Shown piece by piece: positions 22,786-27,224 of a DNA stretch of 64,000 nucleotides (the first letter of the stretch is position 1; each line of letters opens with the position of its first letter). A program made the position numbers and the translations under genes. Under the pieces are notes generated by a model. The model was not told the origin of the DNA, made no database searches, and saw only the letters and a list, made by a program, of their open reading frames with translations. This stretch comes from Synechococcus sp. PCC 7335 (GTDB taxonomy: Bacteria > Cyanobacteriota > Cyanobacteriia > Phormidesmidales > Phormidesmidaceae), in assembly GCF_000155595.1 (NCBI RefSeq), contig NZ_DS989904.1, forward strand, positions 4,581,987 through 4,645,986, written 5' to 3'.

Positions 22786-24708
22786 ATGACAGCCGCACTA
22801 CATGAACAGGAAAAGATCAACCGTGCTAAAGCCATCAACTACGGTGAAGTCTCGGGCATTCCTGACGTTTGGCCAATTGTCGCTGCCAGGTATGGTAATC
22901 ATCTGGCTTTATACGATCCGCATACTAACCCAGAGACGAAATATACCTACGGCGAGTTAGCGACATCGATCTCTCAGTTTGCGGCTGGGTTGCAGCGTCT
23001 AGGCGTAGTGCCAGGTGAGGCGATCGCCCTCTTTTCGGAAAATCGCCCTCGTTGGATGGTAGCAGATCAAGGCATTATGACGGCTGGTGCCATTGACGCG
23101 GTGCGCGGTGCCAACTCCGATAAGGCCGAGCTGCTGTTTATTTTGAATAATAGTGACAGCATTGGCTTGGTCATTCAAGATCTGAGCGTACTCGACAAGA
23201 TAGCGGGCGATTTAGGTGAGCTAGGACTACGCTTTATCATCTTGCTTACCGATGAAGTGGCGGCAAGCGAGACAGACTTGGGCGGTGCCAAGCTATTAAA
23301 CTTTTCTGAGCTAATGGCGCTAGGAGCAGAGCAGGGGGCGCCAACGCCTGTGAAATTAGAGCGCGATCGCACCGCCACGTTGATGTATACCTCCGGCACC
23401 TCGGGTATGCCTAAAGGCGTCATGCTGACTCAAAGTAACCTGCTGTCGCAAATTGCCGGGGCTAGCAGCGTAGTCAATGTCGGCCCTGAGCAAAAAGTGC
23501 TGAGTATCCTACCGATTTGGCACTGCTACGAGCGCTCTTTTGAGTACTTTGTGCTCTCTCAAGGCTGCACGCAGATCTATACCAACATCCGCACGGTCAA
23601 AAGAGACTTTAAAGAACACAGCCCGCAATATATGGTGGCCGTTCCTAGACTATGGGAATCAATTTACGACGGTGTTCAAAGGCAGTTTCAAAGTCAGCCA
23701 GAGGGAAAGCAAAAGCTAATTCGCTTCTTTTTAGAAAAAGGCCATGAGTACATCACAGCTAGGCGAACGTTATCTGGACTGCGATTAGATCACCTGACTA
23801 GCTCTACAGGCGAAAAGCTAGCGGCTGCGTTGAAACTGGCCTATCTATGGCCGATTTATCAGATTGGCGATCGCATCGTTTTTTCTAAGATACGTGAGGC
23901 TATGGGCGGCAAAGTTGACTTCTTAGTCAGCGGCGGTGGCTCAATTGCCGACTATCTAGAAGACTTTTACGAGGTTGTAGGCATCCCCATTTTAGGTGGC
24001 TACGGTCTGACCGAAACCTCGCCAATCACCCACGTTCGTAGACCCTGGCGCAATTTGCGCGGCGCAGACGGGCAGGCACTACCCGGCACCGAAACCGCTA
24101 TTGTCGATCCTGAGACCCGTCAGCCTATTCCGATTGGGAAACCTGGACTGGTGCTTTTGCGCGGGCCCCAAGTGATGAAGGGCTACTACAAAAACGCTGA
24201 AGCCACTGCCAAGGCGATTGATTCAGAAGGCTGGTTTGACACGGGTGATCTGGGTCGGCTAACAGACTGGGGCGATCTGATTATCACCGGACGCGCCAAG
24301 GACACCATCGTATTAACCAACGGCGAAAATATCGAACCAACGCCAGTTGAAAATGCCTGTCTGCGTAGCCCCTACGTCGATCAAATCATGCTGGTTGGTC
24401 AGGATCAAAAGTCTGTTGGGGCGCTGATTGTACCAAATAAAGAGGTGCTAGAGAAGTGGGCTGCTTCTAAGGGGGTATCTATGGAAGATCTCAACAGCAA
24501 ACCTATTCAGGATCTGTATAAACAAGAGCTGAAACGAGAGATATCAGCTCGTCCTGGCTATCGCCCTGATGAGCGTGTCGGTCCATTTGTCTTGCTAGAA
24601 GAACCGTTCACCATAGAAAACGGATTGCTGACACAAACGATGAAAGTAAAACGGCCTAAAGTGCGCGATCGCTATCAAGAAACTATCGATGCTCTTTACG
24701 CTCAGTAG
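22786..24708 (+). CDS. aas: Long-chain acyl-ACP/acyl-CoA synthetase
   Basis: The 640-residue AMP-forming ligase has the P-loop motif MYTSGTSGMPKGV at about 199-211, the GYGLTETSP A5 motif near 405, the GWFDTGDLG motif, and the A8/A10 region GRAKDTIVLTNGENIEP with a Lys-containing C-terminus. Cyanobacterial genes of this form encode Aas, which activates free fatty acids with ATP and loads them onto acyl carrier protein for recycling. The 640-residue length and long N-terminus fit. A start with GGGAG upstream (around 22770) supports the ATG at 22786. The convergent HNH gene ends 31 bases after. Confidence 0.9.
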   Translation: MTAALHEQEKINRAKAINYGEVSGIPDVWPIVAARYGNHLALYDPHTNPETKYTYGELATSISQFAAGLQRLGVVPGEAIALFSENRPRWMVADQGIMTAGAIDAVRGANSDKAELLFILNNSDSIGLVIQDLSVLDKIAGDLGELGLRFIILLTDEVAASETDLGGAKLLNFSELMALGAEQGAPTPVKLERDRTATLMYTSGTSGMPKGVMLTQSNLLSQIAGASSVVNVGPEQKVLSILPIWHCYERSFEYFVLSQGCTQIYTNIRTVKRDFKEHSPQYMVAVPRLWESIYDGVQRQFQSQPEGKQKLIRFFLEKGHEYITARRTLSGLRLDHLTSSTGEKLAAALKLAYLWPIYQIGDRIVFSKIREAMGGKVDFLVSGGGSIADYLEDFYEVVGIPILGGYGLTETSPITHVRRPWRNLRGADGQALPGTETAIVDPETRQPIPIGKPGLVLLRGPQVMKGYYKNAEATAKAIDSEGWFDTGDLGRLTDWGDLIITGRAKDTIVLTNGENIEPTPVENACLRSPYVDQIMLVGQDQKSVGALIVPNKEVLEKWAASKGVSMEDLNSKPIQDLYKQELKREISARPGYRPDERVGPFVLLEEPFTIENGLLTQTMKVKRPKVRDRYQETIDALYAQ

Positions 24709-24738: not shown

Positions 24739-25764
24739 TCAGGCCGCCTGTTGTCCAGACTGTTGTTCTGGCAACAGGCGCTGAGCGCTAGCTCGACGCT
24801 GACTGGGAGGTTGCACGTGGGCAAATATCCTCTGGATTTTAGCCAGTTTGGCGATGACAACGTTGTTCTCTGGGTAGCGCTCGCAAACAAACTGAACCAA
24901 ATCATCTACCGTACATGGGTTAGTACTACCACCGTTCCAGCTATGAAACTCCTTGTGAACAGAGCTTTCTAGAGTGATGATGTTATCTACCAGCGTCGCT
25001 AGATGAGGATAGTACTGCGAAGAAAAGATATGGTGTCCGGATAGAGCAAAGTTGTGATTGTGCCTTGTCTGTCTAACTAGTGTGATCTGACAGGTGTTTC
25101 TGTCTCTCCTCTTAGCAGCCTTTTTTGCTTTCTCAATCTGGTTTTTACGGCTTTCTTGTTCTGAGATAATGGCCCTAAAGGCTTTCCTACCTACTACATC
25201 TACAGCTTTACACCATTCTCGCCGGTCTTTGCGGGTCAGCGTCTGCGACAGGTTTTCGCTGAGTCGGTAGAATCCACTGAGGGAGTAGTAGCGCACACCC
25301 TCGATATCATCAAAGTCAACGCCTATCTGAAGCGGTAAATCGGAACGTCGCAGCACTTCAAATGCTTTGTTTAATCTGGCATAGCTAGTACTTAAAATGG
25401 CAACAGTGTCTTTCTTCGACAGAAAATGTCTGCCGTTGCGCGGCATCAACGACGAGCTGTTTTCATGGACGGTTCTTTGAACAAATGCGTTCCGAATCTT
25501 TTCTTTGTGATGAGTGATAAATTCGCGAATCCTGTCTAAAATAGACTTTCTCCGATGGGTATCGAGATATTTTGCGATCGCGAACGCACCCTGCGCCGAA
25601 AATATCCGATTCCTCCACTCCTGATTACTATAAACAAAATGATCGTGCTCTTTTAGCTCCCACTCGTCGTCAGGATCAGAATCAAAAAAGTCAATTACTT
25701 CATATAGCTTCTCAACTGAAATCTCAAGCGCTGCGGCTAGTTCTTCCTCTTTAATCGTGAACAT
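24739..25764 (-). CDS. HNH-nuclease-like protein with helix-turn-helix-like N-terminus
   Basis: The ATG at 25764 gives 341 residues; a TTG at 25800 would add 12. The region 223-278 has the HNH pattern: Cys225 in NTCQIT, the His244-His245 pair in SGHHIF, Asn261 in DNIITL and His270/His274 in VHKEFHSW. HNH enzymes use the His pair and Asn/His to cut DNA with one metal ion. Upstream lie two helix-rich segments, one near the start (EELAAALEISVEKLYEVIDF) and one near 116-145 (KKDTVAILSTSYARL), that look like winged-helix or HTH units. The substrate is unknown. Just upstream on the same strand is a J-domain gene (19-base gap), which suggests co-expression. Confidence 0.6.
   Translation of the reverse strand: MFTIKEEELAAALEISVEKLYEVIDFFDSDPDDEWELKEHDHFVYSNQEWRNRIFSAQGAFAIAKYLDTHRRKSILDRIREFITHHKEKIRNAFVQRTVHENSSSLMPRNGRHFLSKKDTVAILSTSYARLNKAFEVLRRSDLPLQIGVDFDDIEGVRYYSLSGFYRLSENLSQTLTRKDRREWCKAVDVVGRKAFRAIISEQESRKNQIEKAKKAAKRRDRNTCQITLVRQTRHNHNFALSGHHIFSSQYYPHLATLVDNIITLESSVHKEFHSWNGGSTNPCTVDDLVQFVCERYPENNVVIAKLAKIQRIFAHVQPPSQRRASAQRLLPEQQSGQQAA
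24745..24780. terminator. Hairpin at the convergent end of aas and the HNH gene
   Basis: The arm cgcctgttg (24745-24753) plus ccaga pairs with tctgg plus caacaggcg (24772-24780), with one unpaired T at 24754 and a 7-base loop. It lies inside the last codons of the HNH gene. There is no T-run, so its termination role is inferred from position only. Confidence 0.4.
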
Positions 25765-25783
25765 TGAACTTCTTGGTGCCACG

Positions 25784-26326
25784 CTACGCCTCCGCCGCAA
25801 TGCTGCGATACATCAAATTGATCCGCTCGAACATGCGATCATTGCCCGACTCTGGATTATCGGGATGAAAGTGCTTACTGAGCTGCCGATAGGCTTGCTT
25901 GATATCTTCATCACTGGCAGTGTTAGCGTCTAACCTAAACACTTGCCAAGGTCGAAAGTATTTGAAAATATCAATGCCATTAATACAGCCGTCACCAACT
26001 TGAGTATCTTCACCAGGCAGTACGCCTACAAACTGACGATAGAGCTGTTCCCAAGATTTCTTGAGCCGTAGGTTAAGCTTATCCATGCCGTCTGTTGCCA
26101 TCTTGAATGCGCCAGACTTGCGCAATGTGGCCGTATCTTTTACCTCAAAATGTTCTAGAACAGCTTTTTTAAGCTTTGTCATAGACAACGGTTTTGACTT
26201 CTTCGTTCTCTGATTTTCAAGAACAAAGATCGCAAACTCTTCTAAAATCTGAGCACTAATCCCTTCTGATCGTGCAAGGCTATTAATTTTATTAAAGATT
26301 TTTGGACTAATTGTTTTTTTGGCCAT
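25784..26326 (-). CDS. Protein with C-terminal J-domain
   Basis: The protein has 180 residues. The C-terminus (about 128-178) reads as a J-domain: WQVFRLDANTASDEDIKQAYRQLSKH-type helix I/II, the essential HPD (154-156) and helix III (MFERINLMYRSI). J-domains stimulate DnaK ATPase. It lacks the Gly/Phe and zinc-finger regions of DnaJ, so it is a specialised co-chaperone. The N-terminal 100 residues are helical, basic and unrecognised; they could be a DNA- or client-binding part. It is first of a two-gene unit with the HNH-like gene 19 bases downstream. Confidence 0.7.
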   Translation of the reverse strand: MAKKTISPKIFNKINSLARSEGISAQILEEFAIFVLENQRTKKSKPLSMTKLKKAVLEHFEVKDTATLRKSGAFKMATDGMDKLNLRLKKSWEQLYRQFVGVLPGEDTQVGDGCINGIDIFKYFRPWQVFRLDANTASDEDIKQAYRQLSKHFHPDNPESGNDRMFERINLMYRSIAAEA

Positions 26327-26771: not shown

Positions 26772-27224
26772 ATGGATGTCTCACAGTCTCAGCTACTGCT
26801 TAAACGCGTCATCAATATCAAGGCAGTGGTCACACCACTGTGGAAAGAAGAAGCCCAAAAGCAGTTGCAAAACCAGCTTAATCAGATTGATGGTCGCCTA
26901 CAGCAGCTAGAAATGCAAAGCCAGCGGATCTTGGCTGAAATGCAAAAGCAGGCAGATAATCCACCACCCGATGCTGCTGTTTCTCAGCAGATTAGCAGCG
27001 TTCAGGCCAAGCTCAATCAAGACAAAAGCCAGCTACTTCAGCAGAAGAATCAGCTACTTCAGCAGCTTCAGCAGGTGCAAACCCTAGAAATAGATAAAGA
27101 AGTCAGTCAGGGTCAAATCGATAGCTTCTTCCAAGTCGGCGTTGGCGATCATCTGATTAAGAAAATGCAGGTTGAAATTTTGCTTAAAGATGGTGTGGTA
27201 CAAGATATTCGCGGTGAACTGTAA
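26772..27224 (+). CDS. YlqD-like coiled-coil protein
   Basis: The protein has 150 residues. A short N-terminal strand region (LLLKRVINIKAVVTPLWKEEA) precedes a long Gln/Leu-rich coiled coil (about 30-107). The C-terminal IDSFFQVGVGDHLIKKMQVEILLKDG region gives a compact beta/alpha end. The pattern matches the YlqD family seen in firmicutes and cyanobacteria, whose function is not known. The gene ends 88 bases before the E2 start and may be read with it. Confidence 0.7.
   Translation: MDVSQSQLLLKRVINIKAVVTPLWKEEAQKQLQNQLNQIDGRLQQLEMQSQRILAEMQKQADNPPPDAAVSQQISSVQAKLNQDKSQLLQQKNQLLQQLQQVQTLEIDKEVSQGQIDSFFQVGVGDHLIKKMQVEILLKDGVVQDIRGEL

Follow-up and report, generated by a model that had tools for sequence, protein, structure and literature searches.

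The window, that is, the whole stretch of 64,000 nucleotides of Synechococcus sp. PCC 7335 DNA that was analysed (contig C1, 4581987-4645986), carries on its minus strand two adjoining genes, the first for a J-domain protein and the second for a protein with an HNH-like nuclease domain. Both open reading frames had been described, at the same place, in an earlier note made from the sequence, and the observation of this gene pair is confirmed here. On one side the pair is flanked by an open reading frame resembling a long-chain AMP-ligase, which ends at 24708, and on the other by a YlqD gene, which starts at 26772 (family match with E 5e-43). The features of the pair are the following.

25784..26326, minus strand: gene for the J-domain protein, 180 aa, the unit's first gene, with full-length relatives found
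25787..25954, minus strand: J-domain, residues 125-180, C-terminal (Pfam DnaJ; AF2 helices 126-129, 139-153 and 163-179)
25859..25867, minus strand: HPD motif (residues 154-156), conserved without exception among the 29 aligned proteins
25789..25793, minus strand: GGAGG within the 3' end of the J gene, 6 nt ahead of the HNH GTG
25784-25786, minus strand: TAG stop codon of the J gene, followed by a C and then by the GTG at 25780-25782
24739..25782, minus strand: gene for the HNH protein, 347 aa from the GTG; the alternative ATG at 25764 gives 341 aa
25549..25761, minus strand: winged HTH 1, residues 8-78, acidic, with a predicted MerR/CbpM-like fold (AF2, VIA-align)
25237..25446, minus strand: winged HTH 2, residues 113-182, near neutral (AF2, VIA-align)
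25099..25230, minus strand: long basic helix, residues 185-228, linking the winged HTH pair to the nuclease (AF2)
24868..25098, minus strand: predicted HNH nuclease domain, residues 229-305 (alignment of 29, AF2, VIA-align)

The HNH gene probably starts at the GTG rather than at the ATG at 25764, since this GTG lies one base past the J stop codon and has the GGAGG six bases ahead of it, inside the J gene. The length of 341 residues that had been reported for the HNH protein is correct if the ATG is used, but the 347-residue product is likelier, and the reported gap of 19 bases probably shrinks to a single one. The 29 homologous junctions are in agreement with this, with a median gap between the J and HNH genes of 2 nt (range -10 to +15, at most 8 in 27 of the 29), although these values depend on the rule by which starts were chosen: the 15-nt value, at L062, becomes 2 with an upstream ATG. 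One of the words AGGA, GGAG or GAGG is present ahead of the HNH start at 17 of the 29 junctions. These close junctions and ribosome-site words make it likely that translation of the HNH gene is coupled to that of the J gene.

The J protein has 180 residues with the HPD at 154-156, as had been noted before, and DnaJ is its sole domain above a Pfam cut-off (33.5 bits versus 27.8, residues 135-174). In the AF2 model, based on 29 homologues and with a mean pLDDT of 89.2, the HPD sits between the helices 139-153 and 163-179, and H154, P155 and D156 are kept in all 29 proteins. The best solved match of the J-domain is Tim14 (2guz_A, Z 8.4 over 65 residues at 2.6 A, VIA-align), while residues 1-105 are without an informative structure match. 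On the basis of the Pfam score and the HPD, the protein can be counted among the J-domain (DnaJ/Hsp40) proteins, and the invariance of the motif suggests that it likely engages the host DnaK. Helix II of the J-domain is only weakly basic (mean +1.1, range -1 to +3). On average, a mild positive charge is also carried by the N-terminal part (+3.1) and the middle part (+3.3) of the protein, with exceptions among the homologues.

For the HNH protein, the AF2 model (29 homologues, mean pLDDT 87.4) predicts two winged HTH domains (about residues 8-76 and 118-181) and, after a helix of 42 residues (185-226), a beta-beta-alpha core with strands 247-251 and 268-272 and a helix 273-282 in the 347-aa numbering (241-276 in the 341-aa numbering). 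The beta-beta-alpha metal fold, which the earlier note had proposed as a check, is therefore predicted. The HNH-like core residues listed there, now C231, H250, H251, N267, H276 and H280 (347-aa numbering), are invariant in 29 homologues, and their H-H-N-H-H pattern is, we presume, reminiscent of colicin DNases. As modelled, the protein combines the beta-beta-alpha fold with the His and Asn residues of an HNH nuclease, and these invariant residues make it likely that it cuts DNA.

Family profiles respond weakly to the HNH domain. The window protein does not reach the cut-off of a curated HNH family, a result that leaves superfamily membership possible: HNH_2 matches it with E 0.13 (12.6 bits versus a cut-off of 21), and the same model matches 12 of the 29 members at E <=0.1 (best E 2.9e-4). 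Other weak HNH-family matches of the window protein are phrog_119 (E 1.2e-4) and the PADLOC model REase_II (E 5.8e-8). Neither the HNH protein nor its HNH domain retrieved convincing sequence relatives among solved structures, and with Foldseek neither the J nor the HNH model attained E <0.001, the best viral-library match being a phage 'regulatory protein' (E 2.6e-3). By VIA-align, the HNH core matches EcoKMcrA (6ghc_B, Z 6.6 over 89 residues at 4.3 A, range 211-320), VcaM4I (Z 5.8) and Cas9 HNH domains (Z 4.8 to 5.9). The first winged domain matches RacA (Z 7.6), the MerR-family protein HiNmlR (5d90_A, Z 7.0) and CbpM (3ucs_A, Z 5.3), and the second one the N-terminal domain of a granulovirus protein (4ye7_A, Z 7.3 over 83 residues, range 104-210). 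These Z values are middling by the tool's own scale, and the fold statements rest on them together with the AF2 secondary structure, so that a family missing from the match lists is still possible. By profile, the first winged domain has a weak DUF2316 match in 17 of the 29 members (best E 3.5e-4) and the second one a Bro-N match in a single member (E 0.002). The domains also differ in net charge, which ranges from -3 to -10 in winged HTH 1 in all 29 proteins, from -2 to +6 in winged HTH 2 and from +1 to +11 in the long helix. In winged HTH 1, acidic residues cluster in a stretch around D39, W41 and E45.

The proposal that the two genes form a unit, to be checked by their adjacency across cyanobacteria, is borne out. 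Full-length HNH genes are present in 31 copies in 29 of 386 cyanobacterial genomes (E <=2.2e-64), and all 31 have a J gene just upstream on the same strand, the profile matches lying 8 to 121 nt apart. Thirty of these pairs were also checked on fetched loci, and the remaining one (G232:C99) is placed from coordinates alone. A copy is also present in Synechocystis salina (L067). In 5 of the 31 HNH copies an in-frame stop was flagged, but the open frames measure 338 to 353 aa, indicating that the flagged stop is the gene end. Among 58 genomes of near relatives, the window genome included, HNH occurs in 13 with J directly upstream in each, and full-length J relatives (E <=5.2e-29) are restricted to the same 13. 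A second collection, which overlaps with the first sample of genomes, yielded 30 loci with J upstream at 29, the exception (L057) starting 79 bases from a contig end; at L073 and L078 the contig ends within the HNH gene. This contig scan used patterns from the N-terminal winged helix, so that J/HNH relatives with other N-termini would escape it, and its loci are by title all cyanobacterial; the profile searches of genomes covered the Cyanobacteria only. Across 30 neighbourhoods, J and HNH genes were each identified in 28, and the next most frequent family reached 4; no third partner, in the sense of another family in more than 4 of the 30, was seen.

Separation of the two genes is rare. J occurs at 33 places in the 386 genomes, 31 of them paired and two, in G077 and G170, without an adjoining HNH gene; these orphans (L156:4275-4823 and L157:3883-4434) have an intact HPD. 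At one of the 33 places (G184), the J protein has 253 aa and is matched by the profile in two pieces. A J fragment is found in G206. HNH without J is represented by remnants or divergent forms: a frame-broken gene in G282 (L194), an N-terminal part with stops in G266 (L195), a short divergent open reading frame elsewhere in the genome of G170, and weak local matches in G384 and G104. A tblastn search of L157 found no HNH remnant near the orphan J. A single HNH match with E 0.003, about 3 kb from J in L156, was dismissed as chance, as were two J matches (E 0.002 and 0.009) on the strand opposite to the HNH remnant in L194. The resulting asymmetry, in which HNH is missing from 2 of the 33 J places and J from none of the 31 full-length HNH copies, rests on two genomes.

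Both genes also appear to have diverged together. Their pairwise distances correlate (r 0.845 over 27 loci, with none of 2000 permutations as high), a correlation that can also arise from shared descent alone. The J and HNH trees agree on several groups, among them the window's group of four, the three from Nodosilinea and the six from Myxacorys. They disagree on L075, which is placed with L077 and L080 by J and with the Crocosphaera group by HNH, and many forks are weak. The pair is under purifying selection, with dN/dS values (Nei-Gojobori) between 0.08 and 0.32 in nine comparisons and no value obtained in a tenth.

The linkage extends to the nuclease domain as such. A profile of the HNH domain only has 34 places in the 386 genomes with E <=2.0e-25, the next one following at 1.8e-7, and a J gene lies beside all of them except the G282 remnant and the G170 orphan; the 32 with J comprise the 31 pairs and one in G131. 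As this profile was built with the domains of G131 and G170 among its rows, their own matches are there by construction. With J beside 32 of the 34 strong places, the HNH group seems nearly confined to J-linked genes. In G131 (L150:560-2285), a gene for a 222-aa protein with an HPD and a weak DnaJ match (E 0.001, below the cut-off) is followed after 10 bases by one for a 348-aa protein with a C-terminal HNH domain. This domain belongs to the same group (E 4e-17), while the N-terminal part does not align to the family, and the pair is possibly a second subtype with N-terminal parts unlike those of the window family. Ten further places match the domain more weakly. Among the eight of these loci that were read, three have methyltransferase-like neighbours (L153, L189 and L190, by eye) and two (L184 and L193) are ThyX-like open reading frames with an intein. 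A restriction-type ancestor of the HNH group is plausible on such grounds. Large ThyX-like open reading frames with inteins that carry an HNH domain were noticed by eye at L167, L180, L184, L186 and L193.

The occurrence of the pair as a whole is patchy, even within the window's genus, where 4 of 7 genomes have it. In the window genome and in G002 it lies between the AMP-ligase and YlqD genes. In the remaining five congeners these two genes adjoin each other without an intervening J or HNH; G003 carries the pair in this block as well, at a distance of two genes, and G004 (L052:5481-9141) near genes of a type III CRISPR system (Cmr2/Cas10 and a RAMP protein). The three arrangements and the empty sites in a single genus show that loss, gain or movement of the pair has taken place. 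Neither the shared-family count nor the neighbour families revealed a repeat or an integrase to account for it. The window HNH protein has no match in viral contigs, phages or plasmids, the window J protein none in phages or plasmids and the J alignment none in viral contigs, the divergent G131 proteins none in viral contigs or plasmids, and one distant HNH homologue none in plasmids; the viral scans use few short peptide patterns and find only sequences that carry them. At L164:2246-3000 (G180), two open reading frames resembling XisH and XisI were seen by eye after the pair.

A role in defence, which the earlier note had put forward, is unsupported so far. At E 1e-10, 9 PADLOC families were matched by 136 neighbours of 20 pairs and 47 by 135 control proteins from the same 20 contigs, many of the 47 being PD-T4-6 models and proteins above 900 aa being dropped from both sets; these figures count families, not proteins, so that an absence of enrichment is all that can be read from them. 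A defence-island location was rejected on this basis, and the neighbourhood test does not help a phage role, though one relative adjoins the Cmr genes. Among known defence systems (PADLOC-DB 2023), the only match was to the HNH part of a REase_II model, and J matched nothing at E 1. The 28 regions upstream of J, taken up to 300 bases, contain no CIRCE, LexA-like site or shared dyad, the first two having been searched with hand-written patterns. Two further assignments were set aside: that of a homing endonuclease, as the gene is free-standing and occupies differing places within one genus, and that of a type II restriction-modification system, as no methyltransferase is common to the neighbourhoods (other families reach at most 4 of 30).

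The genetics provide good support for a joint action of the two gene products, and we infer that they bind each other. The best reading of the pair would be that the J protein, as a co-chaperone dedicated to the HNH DNase, recruits DnaK to it and thereby determines when it acts. The idea that a chaperone acts on the nuclease, already present in the earlier note, is the most natural one in view of the HPD that is invariant in 29 proteins and of the parallel divergence. In a more specific form, for which we would allow somewhat less than an even chance, the pair is a dedicated module in which the Hsp70 cycle holds the HNH DNase inactive until chaperones are drawn away. The J gene would be translated first, with the HNH gene probably coupled to it via the ribosome site in its end. 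The J protein would then bind the nuclease, plausibly via the acidic MerR/CbpM-like winged HTH 1, and recruit the host Hsp70 (DnaK) via its HPD, so that the Hsp70 cycle would keep the HNH DNase folded but inactive, or off the DNA. When chaperones are diverted, for example by a burst of phage proteins or by stress, the nuclease would be freed, and it could be imagined that winged HTH 2 and the basic helix then put it on DNA, which it would cut. Restraint is favoured by the position of J as first gene in the operon, by the occurrence of J without HNH twice and the reverse not at all, and by the risk that a free HNH protein would pose to its host. As acidic winged helices bind DNA poorly, winged HTH 1 may bind protein, and the N-terminal and middle parts of J could equally be its partner. 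The restraint of the nuclease by J, its trigger and a protection against phage are conjecture.

Several known systems share elements with this scheme. In toxin-antitoxin-chaperone systems, a SecB-like chaperone is encoded with a toxic effector and is proposed to gate it; here, there are two genes with no antitoxin seen, and an Hsp70 co-chaperone takes the place of SecB. A parallel in gene order is offered by CbpA and CbpM of E. coli, where a J gene is followed, in one operon, by the gene for a MerR-like HTH partner. According to passages of PMC4063869, CbpM is encoded downstream of cbpA and its acidic patch binds the HPD face of the CbpA J-domain, with seven basic residues of CbpA in the interface. 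Winged HTH 1 aligns with CbpM over 61 residues at 2.8 A. However, CbpM is a small dimeric inhibitor without a nuclease, whereas here the winged HTH is one of two within the nuclease, and the J-domain is N-terminal in CbpA but C-terminal here. The weakly basic helix II, in comparison with the seven basic interface residues of CbpA, counts against docking of the CbpM type, and so does the rank of CbpM, which appears among many MerR-like fold matches and below the best (Z 5.3 versus 7.0 to 7.6). No sequence match to CbpM was found for the HNH protein.

The effector bNACHT25 depends on a J-protein and its DnaK contact, as is proposed here for the nuclease. Passages of PMC12169576 describe that bNACHT25 needs DnaJ and that DnaJ mutants at H33 or D35 fail to restore its function; a J-protein with a working DnaK contact can thus relay phage infection to an effector. 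That case concerns a housekeeping DnaJ and a NACHT effector, whereas the J protein described here is dedicated and genetically tied to its effector. The GAP1-N2 GTPase system is a predicted bacterial conflict system with a DnaJ domain and an HSP70 domain, but its DnaJ is fused to FNIII repeats and the system is GTPase-centred, and the relevant passage of PMC7159879 names no HNH partner.

Instead of restraining the nuclease, the J protein could be a positive helper that folds, assembles or remodels the HNH protein on DNA, the nuclease being restriction-like or modification-dependent and itself telling foreign DNA apart. DnaJ and DnaK are known to remodel replication initiators. Likeness to the type II HNH enzymes, through the type II restriction model REase_II that matches the HNH part in 17 of the 29 members, and to the modification-dependent EcoKMcrA and VcaM4I, through the HNH core (Z 6.6 and 5.8), is in line with this possibility, as are the methyltransferase-like genes that adjoin the next HNH relatives beyond the J-linked group in three genomes (by eye). 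These restriction enzymes are nevertheless unlike the present protein, which has tandem winged HTH domains and a J partner. As the neighbourhoods have no methyltransferase in common, self DNA would need to be spared by other means, and the maintenance of J without HNH in two genomes is odd for a folding helper unless it has other clients. A positive helper seems possible but rather doubtful.

A function in the processing of cellular DNA or in stress (repair, DNA breakdown or competence) rather than against phage, with J providing a link to heat or proteotoxic stress, appears quite unlikely. It would agree with neighbours in the window that resemble metabolic genes, with the mostly general families around the 20 pairs (judged from the first 25 of 143 families), with the lack of defence enrichment and with purifying selection, but less well with a pair that is present in only 29 of 386 genomes, that leaves empty sites in close relatives and that has no CIRCE or LexA-like pattern in the 28 upstream regions. 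The patchiness, with three arrangements in the four carriers of one genus, could also be that of a selfish, mobile HNH gene with a J protein protecting either the element itself or its host; HNH proteins are often homing enzymes, and HNH domains in intein-like open reading frames were among the distant matches. Several points speak against such an element: no other family is common to the surroundings, phage integrase and transposase families each account for 2 of the 136 neighbours among the families listed, the insertion places differ, unlike homing to one site, and the pair was not found in the phage, plasmid and viral contig collections searched. This last explanation is highly improbable.

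A unit in which one gene encodes an Hsp70 co-chaperone and the other a nuclease did not turn up in the family libraries searched, and no description of a J and HNH pair was found in literature titles and abstract starts, a search with subscription journals and preprints mostly outside its scope. The words DnaJ and J-domain are absent from the comparative or jumbo-phage surveys PMC5512222, PMC12839542, PMC10853773 and PMC8195603 and from the first 300,000 characters of a further one, PMC3482391; the passages of PMC3710099, PMC7824862 and PMC7159879 that contain them concern other matters. The tight linkage of J and HNH gives a hint that a DNA cutter is controlled by the machinery of protein folding. 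If Hsp70 indeed gates the nuclease, the pair would be a compact case, open to testing, in which a chaperone directly controls a bacterial effector, and would stand beside the recently described relay from host DnaJ to bNACHT25, and MerR-like folds could then act as J-domain docking modules inside effectors. In its boldest form, which we consider unlikely to hold, the pair would represent a new class, in which a J-domain protein evolved solely for the Hsp70 control of one nuclease, the nuclease docks on this co-chaperone with a CbpM-like acidic winged HTH 1 and chaperone overload by phage releases the cutter, with the G131 pair as a second subtype. Variation is also present among the J proteins themselves: one of 253 aa (L064:7215-7973) has two overlapping profile matches, its N-terminal region being partly repeated, as it seems.
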